This document shows, piece by piece, positions 32,467 through 33,533 of a stretch of DNA of 64,000 nt (position 1 is the stretch's first letter; every line of letters begins with the position of its first letter). The stretch is from the NCBI RefSeq assembly GCF_000956175.1, contig NZ_CP011070.1, forward strand, positions 1,544,147 to 1,608,146, in the 5' to 3' direction. Under the pieces are notes generated by a model. It saw nothing but the letters and a program-made list of their open reading frames with translations, was not told the origin of the DNA and did no database searches. This DNA is from Nitrosopumilus adriaticus. Lineage in GTDB: Archaea; Thermoproteota; Nitrososphaeria; Nitrososphaerales; Nitrosopumilaceae. The position numbers were made by a program, and so were the translations under genes.

Positions 32467-32546
32467 GATTCAACTCCTAAATTGCCAATAAAAAAATCTT
32501 TGTTGTTTACAAAAGATTTTATGGTCAAAACACAGAATTTTCATGG

Positions 32547-32640
32547 GTTCCAGTGGTGTAGACCGGTCAAGCATACTGCCCTTTCAAGGCAGTGATCCCG
32601 GGTTCAAAATCAATCGATGAAAATCCCGGCTGGAGCACCA
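32547..32640 (+). tRNA. tRNA-Glu (anticodon TTC) with 15-nt intron in the T-loop; CCA encoded
   Basis: The acceptor GTTCCAG/CTGGAGC is followed by A73 and an encoded CCA. Anticodon stem CTGCC/GGCAG encloses CTTTCAA (TTC at 32583-32585). The T-stem CCGGG/CCCGG encloses 22 nt instead of 7. Removing 32609-32623 leaves the normal loop TTCAAAT, with the intron between positions 59 and 60. The precursor folds as a bulge-helix-bulge: outer GGG/CCC, 3-nt bulge AAT, 4-bp TTCA/TGAA, 3-nt bulge AAA, inner TC/GA with a 4-nt loop. Confidence 0.9.
32609..32623 (+). other. tRNA-Glu intron (15 nt, noncanonical position 59/60)
   Basis: The bulge-helix-bulge geometry puts the cut sites after the second base of each 3-nt bulge (AA^A and AA^T). 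This excises exactly the 15 bases needed to give a 7-nt T-loop. Confidence 0.82.
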
Positions 32641-32654
32641 AGATTTATTTACTA

Positions 32655-33533
32655 ATGACAAAGTTTTTTGATCAGGCAATTTTGGACAGGAAAAATATTG
32701 AAATTAATCCATTACTTGAAACCTATGGAAAATATATTGAAAAAATTGACGAAGCATTAAAAAATGAATTGTCTCTTTATTCAGAATCTGAATTTATTGA
32801 ACCTTTAAAATATTCATTGGAAGGTGGAAAACGAATTAGACCAATAATTTTGACATTGGCAGCTGAAAGCGTAGGGAAAGTTGATGAAAATACATGGTCA
32901 GCATCTTGTGCTGTTGAATTTTTACATATGGAATCAATCATTCATGACGATATTATCGATAATGAAACAATGCGAAGGCAAAAAGATCCATTTCATATCA
33001 AATATGGCTATAACACTAGTGTTCTTACAGGAGACTTTGTTTTAGGATTAATTCTTGCAATATCTTCTAGATTAGATAATGCCAGAATTACAAAAGATTT
33101 AGCCACAACTGCAATGTTGATGAGTGAGGGTGAAATGATTGAAAATAGATTAGAAACAAGCGAAGATGTTACTTTTGATGATTATCTCAAAGTAATTGAA
33201 TACAAAACTGCAACTGCATTTGAGGTAGCAGCCAGAATAGGTGCAATAATTGCAAATGGTTCTGAAGAAGAGATTGAAGCGTTAACGGAGTATGGAAAAA
33301 ATATAGGTATCGCATATCAAATTAGAGATGATTTATTGGATTGGAAAAATGAAGATAAATTATTCAATCTATTAATTAAAAAAAGTTCAGATCCAAGAGA
33401 CGTTTTTAATAAAATGGAAGAGTTGTTAAAGGAATATTCTGATAAAGCCAGAGTCGGTTTAAGAAAAATTCCTGATAATGATGCAAAAATAAATTTAGAT
33501 AATTTAATTAAATTTACTTCGTTTAAGGCATAA
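32655..33533 (+). CDS. Polyprenyl diphosphate synthase, second paralogue
   Basis: 292-aa trans-prenyltransferase with GGKRIRPIIL, first Asp-rich motif HDDIIDNE and second YQIRDDLLDW. It probably makes C15, C20 or longer chains; the division of labour with the idsA of the mevalonate cluster is unknown. The start at MTKFFDQ is chosen because the longer frame begins inside tRNA-Glu. Only 14 bp separate it from the tRNA, with no room for its own TATA box, so co-transcription is likely. The 3' end overlaps nuoN by 11 bp. Confidence 0.9.
   Translation: MTKFFDQAILDRKNIEINPLLETYGKYIEKIDEALKNELSLYSESEFIEPLKYSLEGGKRIRPIILTLAAESVGKVDENTWSASCAVEFLHMESIIHDDIIDNETMRRQKDPFHIKYGYNTSVLTGDFVLGLILAISSRLDNARITKDLATTAMLMSEGEMIENRLETSEDVTFDDYLKVIEYKTATAFEVAARIGAIIANGSEEEIEALTEYGKNIGIAYQIRDDLLDWKNEDKLFNLLIKKSSDPRDVFNKMEELLKEYSDKARVGLRKIPDNDAKINLDNLIKFTSFKA

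Follow-up and report, generated by a model that had tools for sequence, protein, structure and literature searches.

A predicted 15-nt bulge-helix-bulge intron in the T-loop of tRNA-Glu(UUC) of Nitrosopumilus adriaticus, with pairing to exon bases conserved among its relatives

Position 59/60 is among the archaeal tRNA intron positions listed by Yoshihisa (2014; PMC4090602), who also gives a general description of the bulge-helix-bulge (BHB) motif. BHB introns in the T-loop are credited to Marck and Grosjean (2003; cited in PMC6379350). The tRNA-Glu intron described here shares with the noncanonical 59/60 introns of PMC4090602 the position, the BHB-type splice sites and the archaeal alpha2-beta2 enzyme; a possible difference is that here one side of the central helix is supplied by exon bases of the T-loop, which covary with the intron. 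For tRNAscan-SE 2.0 a Thaumarchaeota BHB model was trained, and 107 noncanonical introns are reported in that group (PMC8450103); the phylum and the BHB covariance model are common to that set and our case, and the set very likely includes relatives of the present intron. The nuclear tRNA-Ile(UAU) gene of the eukaryote Cyanidioschyzon merolae also carries an intron in the T-arm but, unlike tRNA-Glu, as one of three introns (PMC9602550). Further related papers are PMC3293823, PMC4033280, PMC4390854 and PMC2237900. In a literature search of mostly open-access papers we found no published account of a 59/60 intron in tRNA-Glu of Nitrosopumilaceae. A BHB intron in this gene is of the kind expected in this archaeal group; the present analysis adds the covariation of an exon base with the intron and a history of repeated gain or loss, with at least five changes on one gene tree.

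The window analysed is a 64,000-nt stretch of a 99.88% complete archaeal genome of 1,803,090 bases in a single contig, whose nearest named relatives on a tree of the neighbouring gene are Nitrosopumilus. All features given below lie on its plus strand. The tRNA-Glu(TTC) gene spans 32547-32640, including the intron and an encoded CCA, and the mature body would be this span minus 32609-32623. Direct reading gave paired acceptor strands (GTTCCAG, 32547-32553; CTGGAGC, 32630-32636), a discriminator A at 32637 followed by CCA at 32638-32640, an anticodon stem-loop CTGCC/CTTTCAA/GGCAG, and a T-stem in which CCGGG (32598-32602) pairs with CCCGG (32625-32629). This T-stem is the outer helix of the proposed BHB; the GGG/CCC outer stem of the original prediction belongs to it, yet is only the inner portion of its five base pairs. 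The T-loop, TTCAAAATCAATCGATGAAAAT (32603-32624), has 22 nt instead of the usual 7 and becomes TTCAAAT when 15 nt are taken out. Judging from its sequence and that of its relatives, we conclude that the locus is very probably a functional gene for tRNA-Glu(UUC), present in a single copy and interrupted at position 59/60 by an archaeal BHB intron of 15 nt.

ARAGORN made no call at 32547-32640 and the Rfam score of the gene was 17.4 bits, under the 29-bit cut-off, as expected for a tRNA with an interrupted T-arm. The gene was not among the 42 RF00005 matches found in its own genome at E values up to 0.001. The anticodon TTC was absent from the 40 of these loci that were read by ARAGORN with introns allowed, and the other two are, by our reading, Arg-CCT and initiator Met. 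The genome has an intronless Glu-CTC gene, and a search of it with a tRNA-Glu pattern gave 32547-32640 as the single match. Neither the inventory nor the pattern search thus revealed a second, intronless tRNA-Glu(TTC), the finding that by the original prediction would have pointed to a pseudogene. By standard decoding rules GAA is not read by a tRNA with anticodon CTC, so this gene, the only TTC gene found, should be essential. The missing ARAGORN call and the low Rfam score could also mark a pseudogene or an assembly artefact, a view that we find barely credible for the sole TTC gene found in a nearly complete single-contig genome, with an insert of the same length in 47 genomes of the genus (own included) and with exon bases, TATA-like box and CCA all intact.

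The TATA-like box, TTTTATGG (32517-32524), lies about 30 nt before the 5′ end of the tRNA and is a probable promoter. It is conserved: such a box was present within 45 nt upstream in 68 of 79 scanned loci, at about -30 in the loci displayed. Downstream of the tRNA follows a 292-aa open reading frame (32655-33533, start approximate), which we take to be a prenyl (GGPP-type) diphosphate synthase. A homologue of this synthase lies downstream of tRNA-Glu in 77 of 98 scored loci, the window included, and is thus a conserved neighbour.

A survey of this tRNA in related genomes, as proposed in the original prediction, matched the tRNA-Glu pattern in 81 of 95 genomes of the same genus and left 14 without a match. 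By hand count, the T-loop had exactly 15 extra nucleotides in 47 of the 81, own genome included, and none in the other 34, where it reads GGGTTCAAATCCC. The insert-free alleles thus display the expected splice product without recourse to any splicing model, and together with direct reading they bear out the claim of a 22-nt T-loop with a 15-nt insert. In other genera of the family the insert was counted by hand in 40 of 49 matched genomes and was missing from 9; the patterns used in both surveys miss introns longer than 30 nt.

We assign the intron, ATCAATCGATGAAAA, to 32609-32623. Upstream of it, exon bases U54-A57 (TTCA, 32603-32606) make up the 5′ side of the central helix; A58 and A59 follow as the exon part of the 5′ bulge AAA (32607-32609), whose third base already belongs to the intron. 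Next come an inner hairpin TC-AATC-GA (32610-32617), the intron-side 3′ strand TGAA of the central helix (32618-32621) and the 3′ bulge AAT (32622-32624), whose third base is exon U60. In the window alone, A-runs leave the cut sites ambiguous and several 15-nt frames yield TTCAAAT, which leaves room for splicing in a different phase, such as 57/58 or 58/59. The relatives make such a phase quite improbable: across 52 listed intron-bearing forms the last position of the 5′ bulge is occupied by A, T or C and the middle position of the 3′ bulge by any of the four bases, whereas the AA opening the 5′ bulge and the T closing the 3′ bulge never change. As variable bulge bases are intronic and the fixed ones correspond to A58, A59 and U60, the intron lies at 59/60 and not at the canonical 37/38, in agreement with the noncanonical position first proposed. 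In BHB introns the cut falls between the second and third bases of either bulge; the phase 32609-32623 is consistent with this rule, and bulge variability leads us to infer cleavage at these two sites.

For structural comparison we assembled, from the matches listed, 52 different T-loops with an intron, all from the family; one source covered 80 loci of 120 stretches, minus-strand entries of another show no T-loop, and eight loci outside the family were kept apart. All 52 listed forms can be divided into an exon strand of 4 nt, a bulge of 3 nt, a hairpin, an intron strand of 4 nt and a second bulge of 3 nt, with introns of 14-22 nt (most commonly 15 nt, in 27 forms, and 16 nt, in 14). The central 4-bp helix pairs in every one of them, as TTCA/TGAA in 47 and TCCA/TGGA in 5, which upholds the claim that exon T-loop bases take part in it. 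In the latter five a U55-A pair has become C55-G, a compensatory change between exon and intron (TGGA stands on the intron side where exon base 55 is C). The inner helix, mostly UC/GA, covaries too, to CC/GG and GCC/GGC, with longer stems also seen and a hypervariable loop; its outer pair is T-A in 48 listed forms, G-C in two and C-G in one, and one form has no pair there. The predicted spliced loops are TTCAAAT (47 listed forms) and TCCAAAT (5), the same two that intronless relatives encode.

For introns of 15 nt, 27 distinct forms were compared: 100% of the cells were paired and two pairs were altered on both sides. None of 500 shuffled controls reached this level of pairing or the covariation score, while 11 of 500 reached the observed count of double-sided pairs. 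When the partner strand was slid, other registers paired in 37-67% of cells vs. 100% in the true one; slides of +3 and +2 scored higher in covariation (0.131 and 0.079 vs. 0.075), with 48-55% of cells paired and fewer pairs. Most helix pairs are invariant and covariation among the 15-nt forms amounts to two pairs. As far as aligned sequences can tell, covariation in both helices supports the view that the BHB structure has been kept; together with bulge variation restricted to the intron side, this agrees with the anatomy originally drawn.

Predicted folding gave a different picture for the isolated T-arm strand. Its lowest-energy fold, at -10.6 kcal/mol (37°C), combines an AUC/GAU hairpin with a 6x6 internal loop, vs. 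-8.8 kcal/mol for the BHB, which is thus 1.8 kcal/mol less stable and remains the less stable fold at 10-25°C. We thus dropped thermodynamic folding as a proof of the BHB. Energy z-scores (-3.41 for the whole gene, -2.30 for the arm) show only that a tRNA is structured. Of 13 forms tested, eight had the central helix in their best fold, none of these eight being a 14- or 15-nt TTCA/TGAA form; it was present in the best fold of all five C55-G forms, from which we conclude that the compensated change strengthens it. The description of this intron as a minimal splicing substrate is fair, with the reservations that the helix is weak in prediction and that 14-nt introns occur in relatives. The folding result also raises the alternative that the precursor adopts mainly the AUC/GAU hairpin and is recognized by the endonuclease as a relaxed motif and not a strict BHB, which would be in line with the acceptance of relaxed motifs by alpha2-beta2 enzymes (PMC6379350). 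We regard this as unlikely: two of the 27 15-nt forms cannot make the extra A-U pair of that hairpin, 22 of the 52 listed forms have T or C at the 5′ side of this pair, and the change from U55-A to C55-G suits the central helix but not the AUC/GAU hairpin.

Candidates for the splicing enzymes are present: the genome has two PF01974 proteins (L194 and L195) and one RtcB (L196). L194, 181 aa as translated, best matched the splicing endonuclease chains 2cv8_A and 3p1z_B, the latter presumably the A. pernix enzyme. In alignment with 3p1z_B the Y, H and K of the triad are matched, and KPK stands opposite K44-P45-R46. L194 thus has, by sequence, the triad and the loop pattern of broad specificity (lysine, then P/V and K/R); these residue assignments and the role of the loop follow PMC6379350 and PMC12397907. 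L195 aligned best with 1a79_A and by our reading is devoid of the triad histidine; we take it as the probable structural subunit. The genome is thus predicted to encode both subunits of a splicing endonuclease of the alpha2-beta2 type, complete with the triad and the lysine loop.

In the proposed pathway, T-loop bases U54-A57 of the precursor would pair with intron UGAA between the two 3-nt bulges, the alpha2-beta2-type endonuclease would cleave both bulges between their second and third bases, and RtcB would ligate A59 to U60 to give the normal loop UUCAAAU; cleavage, ligation and their order relative to T-loop modification are all deduced. The gene is otherwise a complete cloverleaf, and one could imagine that the 15 nt simply persist through maturation and enlarge the T-loop, a natural variant that is never spliced. 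This appears highly improbable in view of the 34 matched genomes of the genus with alleles lacking exactly these 15 nt, of a structure kept in introns that range from 14 to 22 nt and have a hypervariable loop, and of the splicing enzymes encoded; moreover, we infer from PMC7912444 that a T-loop of 22 nt would probably disrupt the elbow between D-loop and T-loop.

The distribution of the intron was followed further. Genomes of genus g8 that were missed by the pattern have a different anticodon stem, and all seven with a readable T-loop carry the insert. It is absent from two loci of genus g9 (L199, L202), and none was seen in genomes of family f8 among those listed in the survey of other genera. 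A search of 250 genomes of the phylum, of which 43 matched, gave no new intron form, with a pattern that fits few tRNA-Glu genes outside the class. One genome (G405) had two copies on near-identical contigs, read as assembly redundancy. On a tree of the neighbouring prenyl synthase built by a quick method, comprising 77 of the 98 loci with a scored T-loop (locus L203 of genome G210 left out; L045 and L046 as far outgroups), at least five changes between intron and no intron were needed, also when only the starred branches were forced. We read these as mostly losses, since most genera have the intron, while the tree by itself does not separate gain from loss. One intron-bearing locus (L152) sits within an otherwise intronless clade, which means either more losses or a return by transfer. 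On this reading the intron is old in family f1, Nitrosopumilaceae by its named relatives, and was repeatedly lost or exchanged.

At L203, in another genome of the genus, the corresponding position beside the same neighbour is occupied by a g9-like, intronless tRNA-Glu with a different anticodon stem; this is an apparent in-place replacement of the tRNA gene and so a second way to lose the intron. Outside the family, L045 and L046 (family f9) have inserts of 58 and 44 nt at the same place and with the same neighbour gene. In genus g23 of family f2, the T-loop of loci L060-L065 is interrupted at this position by 23-44 nt, in which ATGCAT palindromes are frequent and the central helix is imperfect; similar inserts were seen in tRNA-Glu(CTC) of genomes G001 and G018. 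The g23 inserts are possibly of independent origin. An intron age beyond the family was not adopted, as the f9 and g23 inserts do not demonstrate common origin.

According to PMC4390854, Randau and Soll proposed that introns protect tRNA genes from integrating elements. The intronless loci of our tree keep the downstream synthase close by and thus have no element there, a comparison that is unfair because the loci were selected for having the synthase. In two intronless loci (L227 in G270, L228 in G283) about 30 extra nucleotides lie between the tRNA-Glu 3′ end and a conserved downstream motif, and in G270 the extra stretch includes a repeat of GCACCA; these stretches are perhaps the scar of a departed element.

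By hand count, C55 occurs in tRNA-Glu of 13 genomes of other genera: six with the intron, all with G opposite, and seven without it, which belong to one genus. As the intron borrows exon bases of the T-loop, splicing may shape the mature tRNA. We tentatively suggest, giving the idea somewhat less than even weight, that in several lineages the nearly universal U55 changed to C together with the opposite intron base, stabilizing the helix and giving up pseudouridine 55, and that C55 in the seven intronless genomes is a scar left after loss. In C. merolae, Pus4 leaves U55 unmodified while the T-arm intron is present (PMC9602550). A scan of the 30 of 42 own tRNAs with a parsable T-loop revealed C55 in two tRNA-Lys genes (L002, L003), both intronless. 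The idea that C55 is unique to intron lineages was rejected on this ground, and C55 could also have come first.

Other tRNA genes showed signs of introns as well. Initiator tRNA-Met of the same genome (L042, C1:276700-276856, minus strand) has an apparent 15-nt D-loop intron as compact as that of tRNA-Glu (AGCC / AGA / CTATTTAG / GGCT / AGG); its best predicted fold differs from the structure drawn, and ARAGORN misses the locus. An apparent 18-nt D-loop intron was seen in tRNA-Arg(CCT) (L041, C1:117161-117326, minus strand; GCGC / AGA / GTCATTTTGAC / GCGC / AAC). In tRNA-Glu loci L085 and L093, from Nitrososphaeraceae and Nitrosopumilus records, the 5′ half does not run on into the usual acceptor strand, which suggests a D-arm intron.

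The interrupted T-arm explains why the gene was missed: tRNA finders without an archaeal intron model overlook tRNA-Glu(TTC). Close ammonia-oxidizing archaea provide a natural series of intron-bearing, intronless and compensated forms of one presumably essential tRNA. This series allows direct tests of the cost of an intron, of the exactness of its loss and of the constraint that splicing puts on the T-loop and its modification.
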